Part shown: one piece after another, positions 1-40,388 of the stretch
Layout: every line of letters starts with the position of its first letter
Position numbering within the stretch: position 1 is the stretch's first letter
Assembly: GCA_944386015.1 (NCBI GenBank)
Contig: CALWZK010000012.1
Location: forward strand, 1 to 47,047
DNA from: an uncultured Faecalibacterium sp.
GTDB lineage: Bacteria > Bacillota > Clostridia > Oscillospirales > Ruminococcaceae
Length of the DNA stretch: 47,047 bases
Reading direction: 5' to 3'
Made by a program: the position numbers and the translations under genes
The notes under the pieces: generated by a model
What the model saw: the letters and a program-made list of their open reading frames with translations, nothing else
What the model was told of the DNA's origin: nothing
The model's database searches: none

Positions 1-396
1 GATAACAGCATTGTGGCTTACAAGACTGCAACACAGCAAACAGTGAATCTGGTTCTGGATACCATCCGCCAGGCAGTGCGCAGAGAAAAGAAGAAGGTCG
101 CCGCAGAGTTGCAGCTCCACAGCGACCAAGGCTTTCAATATACCTCACACGGATATTTTAAGCTGACTCAATCTTACGGCATTACACCTTCGATGTCAAG
201 ACGCGGAAATCCGTATGACAACGCAATGGCAGAAAATTTCTTCTCTATTCTCAAAACAGAGTGCATTTACCGCCACAAGCCTGCTACATTCTCCGAGGCC
301 AACGAGATGATTGACCGCTATATTCAGTTTTATAACCACGAGCGAATCCAAACAAAAACAGGAGTGGCGCCGCTGACGCTGCGCCACTCCGGCTGA
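1..396 (+). mobile_element. IS3-family transposase, C-terminal part (5' end outside window)
   Basis: The frame is open from the first base and ends at the TGA at 394-396, so the N-terminal part lies outside the window. What remains is the second half of a DDE integrase core (rve type): the Asp motif HSDQGFQYTS and, about 35 residues later, the Glu motif NAMAENFFSILKTE. The end, YNHERIQTKTGVAPLTL, is typical of IS3/IS150-group OrfB proteins. The enzyme would cut and join element ends during transposition. No inverted repeat can be assigned because the left end is missing; the right end probably lies in the 80 bases after the stop. A structured repeat (copy 1) begins 81 bases downstream. Confidence 0.9.
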
Positions 397-476: not shown

Positions 477-690
477 AGCGTGCCACAGCACGCTTTAGGG
501 GGGACCCATTTCTGCGCGCATTCGCGCGGCAGAAATCCTTCCCCCCTAATATCCCCCTTTTAGACAAAATTTGGCGCAGAACCGTGCACGTGCCGCTTGC
601 GGCCCGCACACTCTCTGCGCCAAATTTCCCTGTATGTGTCCCGGCCGGATGCGCATGTCATCCGGCTGGGACGTTTTGTTTTTTGCGTTT
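477..690 (+). repeat. Dispersed structured element, copy 1 (short form)
   Basis: This copy fills the gap between the transposase and the HD-domain gene. It has four hairpins. H1 is AGCGTGC/GCACGCT (477-494). H2 is TTTCTG-CGCGC/GCGCG-G-CAGAAA with one bulged base (509-535). H3 has a perfect 14-bp outer stem, 567-580 with 614-627, enclosing GCCGC/GCGGC. H4 pairs 638-651 with 659-672 around the heptaloop CGCATGT and is followed by a T-rich run (673-690), like an intrinsic terminator. The single-stranded linker CCCTAATATCCCCCTTTT (544-561) is shared with copies 2 and 3. The central insert present in the other copies is absent here. The function is unknown. Confidence 0.85.
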
Positions 691-2584: not shown

Positions 2585-3229
2585 TTACCCCAGGGCGATG
2601 AAGGTCTTGTCCCGGCGGGAGGCGGTGAGCTGCTGCCACAGCTCCACCACCCGGAACCGGAGGATGTACTGGCCGCAGATCAGGTCGGTCTGGGCGGGGT
2701 CGTCGTAGCCCCCGCAGGCCGCGGTGCACAGGCCGGGGTAGAGGACGCACCACCAGTTCCGGCCGTAGGTGCCGGGCTGGCCGATGTCCACCCGCACCGC
2801 GTCGTAGCGGCCGGCGGGGAGGGAGAAATCCCGGTAGTGGGTGGTGTCAAAGTACATGTTCACCAGGCTCACCTGCACCGGCCTGTCCTGGCCCAGCCGG
2901 TCCAGGGTCTGGCGGGCGGTCATCTGGAATTCGGGCAGGTGACGGGCGGCGATGGCGCGGGCTTCCTGGGCGCTGTGAGCCCCGGCGTACAGCCGGCTGG
3001 TCAGCTCCAGCAGGGCGTCCCGCACTGCCAGCTTGCAGGTCTGGTCCAGCACCGAGTCGCTGTCGGCCCGGACATGGAGCCGGATGGTGTCGGCCCGGAG
3101 GGCCTGGCCGGTCTGCTGCTGGGCGTCAAACCACCCGGCGGCCCCCGAGAGCACCAGCCCGCCCAGCAAAGCCAGGCAGACCGTCAGCATCTGGGTGCGG
3201 GTGAGAAGGGTATGGGCAGAGGAAAACAT
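2585..3229 (-). CDS. spoIIR: Stage II sporulation protein R
   Basis: SpoIIR is the signal made in the forespore and secreted into the intermembrane space, where it triggers SpoIIGA to process pro-sigma-E in the mother cell. The 214-residue product has a membrane/secretion segment at about residues 13-32 (MLTVCLALLGGLVLSGAAGW). The family core follows: IRLHVRADSDSVLDQTCKLAVRDALLE compressed over residues 49-75, then FSLPAGRYDAVRVDIGQP and GRNWWCVLYPGLC near the C-terminus. The motifs and length fit the family, so the gene looks intact. No other sporulation-specific gene is in the window apart from the possible partner immediately downstream. Confidence 0.93.
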   Translation of the reverse strand: MFSSAHTLLTRTQMLTVCLALLGGLVLSGAAGWFDAQQQTGQALRADTIRLHVRADSDSVLDQTCKLAVRDALLELTSRLYAGAHSAQEARAIAARHLPEFQMTARQTLDRLGQDRPVQVSLVNMYFDTTHYRDFSLPAGRYDAVRVDIGQPGTYGRNWWCVLYPGLCTAACGGYDDPAQTDLICGQYILRFRVVELWQQLTASRRDKTFIALG

Positions 3230-6401: not shown

Positions 6402-7769
6402 ATGAGTATGTTCAACACGGGGGATATCCTCGAGACCATCGAGATGTTCACCCAGGAGAACCTGGACGTTCGGACCGTGACCATGGGCATCAGCCTGCTG
6501 GACTGCATCGACCCCGACCCCGCCCGGGCCTGTGAGAAGATCTACCGCAAAATCACCACCCGCGCCGGCAAGCTGGTGCCCACCGTGGAGGCCATTGCCG
6601 CCGAGTACGGCATCCCCATCATCAACAAGCGGATCAGCGTCACCCCCATTGCCATGCTGCTGGGGGCCTGCCCCGACGCCGACCCGGTGGACTTTGCCAA
6701 AACCCTGGACGCCGCCGGCAAGGCGGTGGGGGTGAACTTTGTGGGGGGCTACACCGCCCTGGTCCACAAGGGCTTTTCGGCCGGCGACAAGCGGCTGATT
6801 GAGTCGATCCCCCGGGCCCTGGCCCAGACCGACATTGTGTGCAGCTCGGTGAACATCGGCGCCACCAAGGCCGGCCTGAACATGGACGCCGTCAAGATGA
6901 TGGGCCAGGCCGTCCGCAAGACCGCCGAGATGACCGCCGACCGCCAGTGCATCGGCGCCGCCAAGCTGGTGATCTTCTGCAACGCCCCCGAGGACAACCC
7001 CTTTATGGCCGGCGCCTTCCACGGCCCCGGCGAGCCCGACTGTGAGATCCATGTGGGCGTCTCGGGCCCCGGCGCCGTCCGCGCAGCCCTGGCCCGCCTG
7101 CCCAAGGATGCCCCCATCGACGAGGTGGCCAGCCTGGTCAAGCGCACCGCCTTCAAGATCACCCGGGTGGGCCAGCTGGTGGCCAACCTGGTGTCCCGGG
7201 AGCTGGGTGTCCCGGCGGGCATCATTGACCTGTCCCTGGCCCCCACCCCTGCCATCGGGGACAGCGTGGCCAACATCCTGGAGGAGATGGGCCTGGAGAC
7301 CTGCGGCTGCTGCGGCACCACCGCCTGCCTGGCCCTGCTGAACGACGCCGTCAAGAAGGGCGGCGTCATGGCCTCCAACCATGTGGGCGGCCTGTCGGGC
7401 GCCTTCATCCCGGTGAGCGAGGACGCCGGCATGATCCATGCCGCCGAGACCGGCTGCCTGACCATCGAAAAGCTGGAAGCCATGACCGCTGTCTGCAGCG
7501 TGGGCATTGACATGGTCATCATCCCCGGCGACACTTCCGCCGCCGTCATCAGCGGCCTGATCGCCGACGAAGCCGCCATCGGCATGGTCAACTCCAAGAC
7601 CACCGCCGTCCGCGTCATCCCCGCCATCGGCCGCCGCGCCGGCGAGGTGCTGGACTTCGGCGGCCTGCTGGGCCACGGCCCCATCATGCCCATCAACCAG
7701 AAGGACCCCTCGGTGTTCATCAACCGCGGCGGCCGTCTGCCCGCCCCCATGCAGTCTCTCAAGAACTAA
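6402..7769 (+). CDS. UPF0210 / PFL-family protein (DUF711)
   Basis: The 455-residue product belongs to UPF0210 (DUF711), distantly related to the pyruvate-formate-lyase fold; its reaction is unknown. Family features are the start [21 protein letters not shown], the segment [12 protein letters not shown], the glycine-rich [12 protein letters not shown], the cysteine-rich [16 protein letters not shown] at about 302-317, and the C-terminal [18 protein letters not shown]. The gene appears complete. It is the second gene of a unit with the ACT-domain protein. Its stop codon lies inside the first small hairpin of repeat copy 2, so the element forms the 3' untranslated region of this transcript. Confidence 0.93.
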
Positions 7770-8178
7770 AAGTTCTCCAGGGGGGGACCCATTTCTGCCC
7801 GCAGCCGCGGGACAGAAATCCTTGGTTGCGGTTCCCTGCTTTTGCGGCGGGCGTCGTGGCGCCCTTGCAAAAGACAGACCGCGTTCCTCTTGCGCTTGGC
7901 CGATTTTCGCGGCGCGGGGCGGTGCCCGCTTGCGAAAACCGGAGCGCTGCGCCAAACACAGCTCCCTGTTTCATCCACAGGATGCGGTCGCTGTGTTTGC
8001 CCCTGCTCCGCTTCGCCTGTTTCTGCCGCAGGCAGCGGCTCAGCTCCGCAGTCCCTAATATCCCCCTTTTAGACAAAATGGAGCACAGAACCGCGCACGG
8101 GGCCGGGCCCCGTACACTCCCGCCGGAACATTTCCCTGGATGTGTCCGGTCTGTACGCGCATGTCGTCCAGACCGGAC
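7762..8178 (+). repeat. Dispersed structured element, copy 2 (longest form)
   Basis: The element starts at the stop codon of the UPF0210 gene and runs for about 415 bases. H1 here is AGAACT/AGTTCT (7762-7776). H2 is TTTCTG-CCCGC/GCGGG-A-CAGAAA (7792-7818). A central hairpin CTTTTGC..GGGCG/CGCCC..GCAAAAG spans 7839-7873. The linker CCCTAATATCCCCCTTTT is at 8053-8070. H4 is GTCCGGTCTG/CAGACCGGAC with an inner ACG/CGT and the loop CGCATGT (8144-8178). The outer stem of H3 is degraded on its 3' side, but ACGGGGCC/GGCCCCGT can form inside. A block of about 130 bases in the middle is not found in copy 3. No T-run follows H4 and no coding frame is convincing. The function is unknown. Confidence 0.85.
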
Positions 8179-8260
8179 GGATTGAAACAATCCAAAGCCA
8201 TCGGGTATGTATAATCCCCCTTTCTGCCGGGTACAATGTGGGCAGGAAGGGGGTCTTTTT

Positions 8261-40050: not shown

Positions 40051-40366
40051 AAAAATCCCAGCCGGACGACATGCGCGTACGGCTGGGATACATACATGGA
40101 AATGGAGCACAGAGAGTGTGCGGGACGCGAAGCGGCACGTGCGCGGTTCTGTGCTCCATTTTGTCTAAAAGGGGGATATTAGGGACTGCGGAGCTGAGCC
40201 GCTGCCTGCGGCAGAAACAGGCGAAGCGCAAGAGGAACGCGATCTGTCTTTTGCAAGGGCACCATGATGCCCGCCGCAAAAGCAGGGAACCGCAACCAAA
40301 GGATTTCTGCCGCGCGCCTGCGCGCAGAAATTGGTTCCCCCTAAAGCGTGCCGTTTTCGGCACGCT
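40051..40366 (-). repeat. Dispersed structured element, copy 3 (minus strand)
   Basis: Read on the minus strand, the element starts about 40 bases after the cupin-protein gene. H1 is AGCGTGCC/GGCACGCT (40345-40366). H2 has the same bulged stem as copy 1 (40304-40330). The central hairpin CTTTTGC..GGGCA/TGCCC..GCAAAAG is at 40248-40282. The linker CCCTAATATCCCCCTTTT follows. H3 is a perfect 14-bp stem (40100-40113 with 40148-40161). H4 is ATCCCAGCCG/CGGCTGGGAT with inner ACG/CGT and loop CGCATGT (40055-40089), followed on the minus strand by TTTTTTTATTAATTT, a terminator-like end. The central insert is nearly identical to part of copy 2. Confidence 0.85.
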
Positions 40367-40369
40367 GAA

Positions 40370-40388
40370 ACGGCCCCCGGAGGGGCCG
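40370..40388 (-). terminator. Hairpin after the cupin-protein gene
   Basis: CGGCCCC and GGGGCCG pair closely after the gene end; on the minus strand a short TTTC follows. It is a weak terminator, with the repeat element just beyond. Confidence 0.5.

Follow-up and report, generated by a model that had tools for sequence, protein, structure and literature searches.

A short terminator-associated repeat of Faecalibacterium with IS1182-type ends and a conserved minus-strand fold

Short intergenic repeats in the genome of an uncultured Faecalibacterium sp. are, in our judgment, probably copies of a non-autonomous IS1182-type element that homes to transcription terminators and whose minus strand carries a conserved fold, probably as RNA. 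Comparison of copies reveals IS-type ends, a terminator hairpin as the target, sites that lack the element in a relative, and, for a subset, duplication of the target hairpin. Without inserted modules, the element measures ~205-265 bp by our own count and contains no transposase gene. Its copies were followed from a window of 47,047 nt (GenBank assembly GCA_944386015.1, contig CALWZK010000012.1, forward strand), in which an initial annotation had described three segments, 477-690, 7762-8178, and 40051-40366, as sharing one order of hairpins. The positions, the common linker CCCTAATATCCCCCTTTTAGACAAAAT, and the flanking hairpins were confirmed; the identical hairpin order is limited to the outer element, and the "central hairpin" of that description proved to be part of a block of inserted modules in copies 2 and 3 that copy 1 lacks. 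The family is also larger than the three copies first described, as a covariance model (R1, built on hairpins H3-H4) finds 18 in this genome, and grouping by hand gives about the same number.

Copy 1 displays the outer element in its simplest form. It opens with H1, a left-end hairpin (AGCGTGCC..GCACGCT; 477..494, plus strand) that by its sequence is a degenerate IS1182-type left end (consensus of full copies, AGCGTGTCG..CGACACGCT). H2 follows (TTAGGGGGG..CCCCCCTAA, inner stem CGCGC/GCGCG; 495..549, minus strand), delimited by sequence and covariation, and then the remainder of the conserved linker (550..565; sequence and consensus). H3 (566..627, minus strand) lies within an R1 match at 564-672; read as minus strand, it is a nearly uninterrupted helix in which G-U pairs are conserved. 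H4 (638..672, minus strand; sequence and R1) has a conserved loop that reads GCGCATGTC on plus, and a T-rich tail (673-685, plus strand) gives the copy a terminator-like end. To the left, window positions 1-396 hold the 3′ part of a transposase frame, presumably IS3-like by its look, with ~405-476 perhaps its end, and what may be the right half of a terminator stands directly before copy 1. The insertion of this transposase sequence could be what removed the copy's left flank.

Copy 2 (7779..8180, minus strand; R1 match 8073-8178, 85 bits) has no IS1182-type ends and starts, at 7779, ~10 nt past the stop codon of the upstream gene (7767-7769). Its H3 is damaged, the arms being unpaired by eye. 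Between H2 and the linker lies the inserted block, ~230 nt long, which repeat searches resolved into four hairpin modules (7822..8051, no strand assigned) common to another repeat family. Copy 3 lies in the opposite orientation, with H1 (AGCGTGCCGAAAACGGCACGCT) at 40345..40366 on the minus strand and H2, a module block of ~115 nt (40185-40300), linker, H3, and H4 at 40055..40344; R1 matches the minus strand at 40055-40164, and the folded strand is window plus. Immediately to its left stands a terminator-type hairpin (CGGCCCCTCCGGGGGCCG; 40371..40388, minus strand), which by the general rule drawn from other copies is a target-type site. None of the three copies retains both ends, and the IS-like or MITE-like nature of the element is for this reason not visible from the window alone. 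Folded as plus strand, all three are more stable than dinucleotide shuffles (z of -10.2, -6.9, and -5.0 for copies 1, 3, and 2).

The modules of the inserted block also occur in a separate repeat family that starts ATCTATACCC..GGGTTGCGG. The hairpin cassettes concerned (GGGTTGCGG.., GGCCGATTTT..AACCGGAGCGC, CACAGCTCCC..TGTTTG, and CCGCTTCGCC..) form a second family, itself modular, represented in the window at 7822-8051 and 40185-40300 and elsewhere at L017, L019, L021, L023, and L026. They are shuffled between the element and separate long repeat arrays that start ATCTATACCC.

A DNA search of the own genome returned 70 partial matches, which by hand correspond to ~18 copies of the outer element and many copies of inner modules. 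From 249 loci, we obtained 121 distinct full-length copies; 76 of these have both ends and are shorter than 230 nt, and 64 were left for analysis after rows more than 95% alike were dropped. Within the genus the element is present in 11 of 31 genomes, and among the own genome and 60 relatives 11 of 61 match, all within the genus; per-genome copy counts in the genus and order scans are lower bounds, as at most 13 and 10 candidates per genome, respectively, were scored. A pattern scan of named genomes gave at least 113 matching stretches, and the 80 listed come with one exception from Faecalibacterium or Gemmiger, some of them with chicken-derived names; Faecalibacterium sp. An121 and An122 both carry copies. 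One Faecalibacterium-type copy (L154) sits on a 3.3-kb contig in a genome labelled as another lineage, the record Pullilachnospira stercoravium; the contig is possibly misbinned. Two pattern scans of viral contigs yielded no match, and a phage origin was rejected on that result.

The H3-H4 core extends further than the complete element. R1 found it in other genera of the family (G371 and G444, with a weak match in G440) and, more weakly, in other families. A second model, R2, to which distant copies were added, gave matches at E ≤ 0.001 (E-values rough) in 35 of the 394 genomes sampled from the order; these 35 belong to 21 of 168 genera and to nine anonymous families. Rows used in building either model match that model by construction. 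The matches in the weakest families, f3 and f21, may be due to chance. In a phylum-wide sample that included members of the order, 2 of 398 genomes matched, both of the same order. At one locus (G180:C35:49668-50105) three weak R2 matches stand exactly 183 bp apart, possibly as a tandem array.

Flanking sequences bear directly on how the element moves. Direct repeats at its ends score at least 24 in 25 of 80 two-ended copies, compared with 0.6% of 6320 mismatched flank pairs; they are 18-42 bp long and mostly comprise a whole terminator hairpin, in a few copies only part of one. The other 55 two-ended copies have no clear flanking repeat. Of 79 left edges, 51 coincide with the end of a hairpin (score of at least 22), and of 76 right edges, 17 coincide with the start of one; the frequency at 3000 random places is 3.4%. 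Empty sites were sought across the genus with two joined-flank models. In the relative G001, the first site holds a single hairpin with 32 identical bases, whereas the own genome reads hairpin-element-hairpin there; a second site in G001 has one diverged hairpin and no element. Terminator hairpins on both sides of the element recur in genome G220 of another family (f14), where eight of eight fetched copies begin CAGCGTGTCG, end GACAG(A/T/C)CTG or a near form, and by eye have a terminator hairpin on both sides. Copies from G220 and Faecalibacterium share the motifs CGCGCAC..GCACAC and GCRCATGTC despite different stems. These data indicate that a subset of copies has moved by a route that duplicates the terminator. 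In one G220 copy (L353, by eye) and one IS1182-type locus (L251, genome G049), the right hairpin is the reverse complement of the left, which suggests a flipped hairpin.

The ends and the target habit are what lead us to assign the element to the IS1182 family. Its left end, CAGCGTGTCGCAAAAG, and its right end read inwards, CAGACTGTCAAAAAAG, are of the CAGnnTGTC type found in IS1182-family insertion sequences. Very similar terminal inverted repeats bound the IS1182-family CAGnnTGTC ISs of other families of the order (L251, L282, L283, L287, L288, L294, and L298-L300), as in L287, whose end CAGTCTGTCAAAAAAG may be compared with CAGACTGTCAAAAAAG. Like the element, these ISs insert at terminator hairpins and have a hairpin on both sides; unlike it, they encode a transposase of ~470-510 aa, span ~1.5-1.6 kb, and have no conserved loop motifs that we could find. 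Among 32 loci with IS1182-type transposases, 13 have a CAGnnTGTC pair, one of which (L297) looks spurious. Of the remaining 12, five of which represent a single IS of genome G234, nine are flanked by the same hairpin left and right, two by different hairpins, and one by a weak hairpin on one side. The two with different hairpins (L284 and L285) may have brought a donor hairpin with them or arisen by recombination between copies. Copies that retain their ends thus resemble MITEs of IS1182 in their terminal inverted repeats, in their small size without a transposase gene, and in the shared target and its duplication (25 of 80 copies, all eight from G220, and nine of 12 ISs). A match to an IS end or MITE, which the initial annotation had set against its own reading, therefore exists for many copies in the form of IS1182-like ends and a duplicated terminator, and not for all.

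We infer from these features that an IS1182-type transposase is the mover. In the genus, IS1182 transposases above the cutoff were found in six genomes, five of which carry the element, many of the genomes being incomplete drafts. Against the inference, none of the six full-length IS1182 transposase loci in these five element-bearing genomes has matching ends. One CAGACTGTC-ended IS of the genus (L257) lies in a genome without the element. Strong IS1182 matches occur in 17 genomes, four of them among the 35 that are R2-positive. The own genome contains a 183-aa IS1182-like frame that looks like an N-terminal relic. Derivation from an IS by simple internal deletion was rejected, as the loop motifs of the element are absent from 15 IS1182 loci.

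The core may instead be an old chromosomal RNA that IS1182-type ends captured and spread in some lineages, such as Faecalibacterium and G220; this is possible, though we doubt it. Distant cores often lack recognizable ends, and in 23 of 26 distant loci no end pair was found by motif. In Faecalibacterium and its kin, 40 of the 121 copies have no full left end, for a few of them owing to the limit of the locus; several of the 40 lie, like copy 2, directly behind a stop codon. Two end-less copies, L117 and L126, even stand behind the same gene in two species. Set against this are the ease with which ends decay and the presence of a left end and a repeated terminator in three families: f1, including L327 and L329, f14, including L364, and f13, with L362. 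L327 and L329, from other genera of the family, have by eye a terminator hairpin on both sides; repeated terminators can also be read in L359, L362, and L364; and an end pair was found by motif in three of the 26 distant loci, one of them with a high repeat score. Copies without IS-type ends, such as copy 2, may on the element reading be older or decayed.

The second part of the main finding concerns the fold. When pairs are derived from the plus strand, double changes occur at 36 of 64 pairs across the 64 copies; double-change cells number 372, compared with 117.5 after shuffling. The covariation score of 0.238 (0.084 when shuffled, 0.026-0.045 when slid) was reached in none of 500 shuffles, and compensatory changes exceed both kinds of control, which remove the relatedness of rows and the bias from structure choice only in part. 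The exchanges first described for the H2 stem are real and recurrent, pair 47-58 being GC in 39 and CG in 24 of the 64 copies. Selection on a folded single strand, as originally proposed, is thus strongly supported, with the strand reversed: the maintained fold is that of the complement, which is window minus for copies 1 and 2 and window plus for copy 3.

Departures from Watson-Crick pairing distinguish the strands. In the plus-derived set of 64 pairs, 17 of 3994 cells are G.U and 47 are A.C on plus. An A.C on plus is a G.U on minus, so on this set the strands pair almost equally well (94.4% on plus, 95.1% on minus). A tree of 169 distinct H3-H4 stretches gave 67 single-step departures that make A.C (G.U on minus) against 21 that make G.U, and 69 against 21 under other tie rules, whereas unpaired columns of the same stretch, taken as a control, gave 88 against 102. 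The p-value of 9e-7 for 67 against 21 treats events as independent and is indicative, since one data set supplied both the tree and the events, and there is recombination among copies. H2 alone, in 93 stretches, had no strand bias (9 against 10).

Folding energies point the same way. Under RNAalifold, the consensus of the 64 copies has an energy of -105.3 kcal/mol for minus, compared with -78.0 for plus; folded singly, the copies average -121.3 (minus) and -105.1 (plus), with minus the more stable in 64 of 64. For distant cores, minus is more stable in 26 of 27, by a mean margin of 9.7 kcal/mol, where the two strands of random stretches from these loci are separated by a mean of 5.2, whichever is the more stable (95th percentile 12.0). 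Among 36 sequences no more than 93% alike, 37 H3-H4 pairs taken from the minus fold, a choice that favors minus, hold in 98.1% of 1328 cells on minus and in 85.9% of 1330 on plus. The apparent conserved internal loop of plus is helical on minus, where G-U pairs are either fixed or alternate with other pairs (GU/AU/GC in one case, UG/UA in a second); next to this helix, G faces A at one position and A faces G at another, each in 29 of 36 rows. These comparisons reveal minus-strand pairing with covariation and spread, and indicate that the minus-strand fold is the one under selection.

No Rfam 15 family matched the window on either strand, and six further loci gave only sub-threshold, unrelated matches. 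The earlier view that no known RNA family is involved therefore stands, both for the window at gathering score and for the six loci, which lack a credible weaker match. We conclude that the element is neither a chance pattern nor a known Rfam family.

Genomic context was assessed with gene calls that are codon-based and trained on third-position GC rather than taken from annotation. Among copies with an upstream call, 82 of 106 follow a gene on the same strand, and 41 of 96 copies lie between convergent genes, compared with 64 of 328 neighboring gene pairs generally. On plus, H4 and the T-run behind it resemble a terminator. Of 78 left flanks, 49 contain four or more consecutive A and 21 a run of T (figures without a random control), as would suit bidirectional terminators. 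A simple promoter search, which began 8 bases past the end of the model and mostly omits the terminal TTGACA, found no inward, minus-strand promoter scoring at least 9 of 12 in 109 right flanks, and outward promoter-like matches of at least 9 of 12 in 14 of them. As this search found no inward promoter, our guess is that the minus strand would be expressed by read-through or processing from the right-hand gene. The right end of full copies (TTTTTTGACAGTCTG) reads TTGACA outwards. Three copies (L015, L059, and L060) start 3-4 bases after a TATAAT-like box, not a terminator, and their plus strand might be transcribed from the first base.

We consider the folded molecule most likely to be RNA. 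Strand-specific wobble argues for a single-stranded active form, RNA or single-stranded DNA, and a serious alternative, though one we think unlikely, is that the minus strand folds as DNA, for example as a transposition or replication intermediate recognized by the transposase. Such a molecule would leave the same strand-specific signal; the search for inward promoters came back empty; the target is itself a hairpin; and DNA hairpins too tolerate G.T pairs and tandem G-A mismatches. RNA is favored by the G.U content of the RNAalifold consensus (428 of 4092 cells on minus), since about 10% G.U is ordinary for RNA, and by GNRA-type loops, which account for 21 of 29 four-base loops on minus and none on plus, mostly through shared descent of one loop. 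We also know of no single-stranded step in IS1182 transposition.

An ordinary, functionless MITE in which DNA-level correction between arms preserves the hairpins would be short, gene-less, and repeated, as the element is, and could account for the shuffling of modules and for the high ratio of double to single changes. We nevertheless regard it as improbable, as arm correction and cruciforms treat the strands alike and would not yield a minus-strand wobble bias, and the retention of loop motifs between families with different stems would go unexplained. That the plus strand is the structured RNA or a cis-regulatory terminator, as first suggested, is very improbable: the terminator-like H4 and T-run, the location of most copies behind a same-strand gene, the stability of plus folds relative to shuffles, and the near-equal fit of plus-derived pairs are in its favor, but the excess of A.C over G.U on plus, the parsimony counts with their unpaired control, and the poorer survival on plus of pairs that hold on minus all speak against it.

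A terminator-homing IS1182-type element with a minus-strand fold could operate as follows. An IS1182-type transposase supplied in trans would recognize the CAGnnTGTC-type ends and direct insertion at the base of a Rho-independent terminator hairpin. Duplication of that hairpin, seen in a subset of copies, would let the upstream gene retain a terminator, and H4 with its T-run would add a further terminator-like hairpin that keeps the neighboring gene terminated. The minus strand carries the fold H4′, H3′, H2′, and H1′, in which compensatory changes and G-U pairs maintain pairing; minus RNA, if made, would be transcribed from the right and end at the left target terminator acting bidirectionally. 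The conserved H4′ loop (GACATGYGC) and the G-U/tandem G-A helix of H3′ are putative binding sites that may aid persistence or movement.

We propose only tentatively, and with more doubt than confidence, that these RNAs or single-stranded DNAs form a new structured bacterial class found across an order and travelling in IS1182-type elements, with the target terminator doubling as the 3′ end of the minus RNA, and the H4′ loop and H3′ helix recognized by the transposase or a host factor. If this is true, target choice and RNA production would be coupled, since the target terminator would be the 3′ end of the minus-strand RNA. Bacterial MITEs are usually viewed as cut-down leftovers; here a gene-less element appears with a strand-specific fold in several bacterial families. 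Landing at gene ends and duplicating the terminator would be expected to do little harm. The idea of a noncoding mobile element that depends on an RNA of its own becomes testable.

The element recalls several known systems. Correia, NEMIS, RUP, and BOX are bacterial MITEs or foldable repeats that are, like it, short, noncoding, intergenic, and repeated. We know of no MITE or repeat that combines a strand-specific covarying core across families with terminator-duplicating insertion. Pneumococcal repeats are treated in PMC3049150, and PMC8040213 is a screen of structured RNAs in human microbiomes. Among the titles and abstract openings searched, mainly from the open literature, none described the element, and an unnamed earlier prediction is possible. 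Group IIC introns insert next to terminators, and in this they resemble the element; the element differs in that its target is duplicated, and the whole Rfam library, run against the window and six loci, gave no covariance-model match to a group II intron core.

The closest comparison is within the IS1182 family. According to Furi et al. (2016; PMC4923244), IS1272 targets hairpins, often those of terminators, and IS1272 and TnSha1 of staphylococci make a blunt deletion of part of the stem without target duplication; for palindrome targeting by other members of the family, the same paper cites a review. Structure-directed insertion is thus already known for the IS1182 family. The difference lies in the fate of the target: IS1272 and TnSha1 and the present element all target hairpins, but IS1272 deletes where the element duplicates. 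Recognition and duplication of a whole hairpin by an IS1182-type transposase, unlike the deletion described for IS1272, can now be put to the test.
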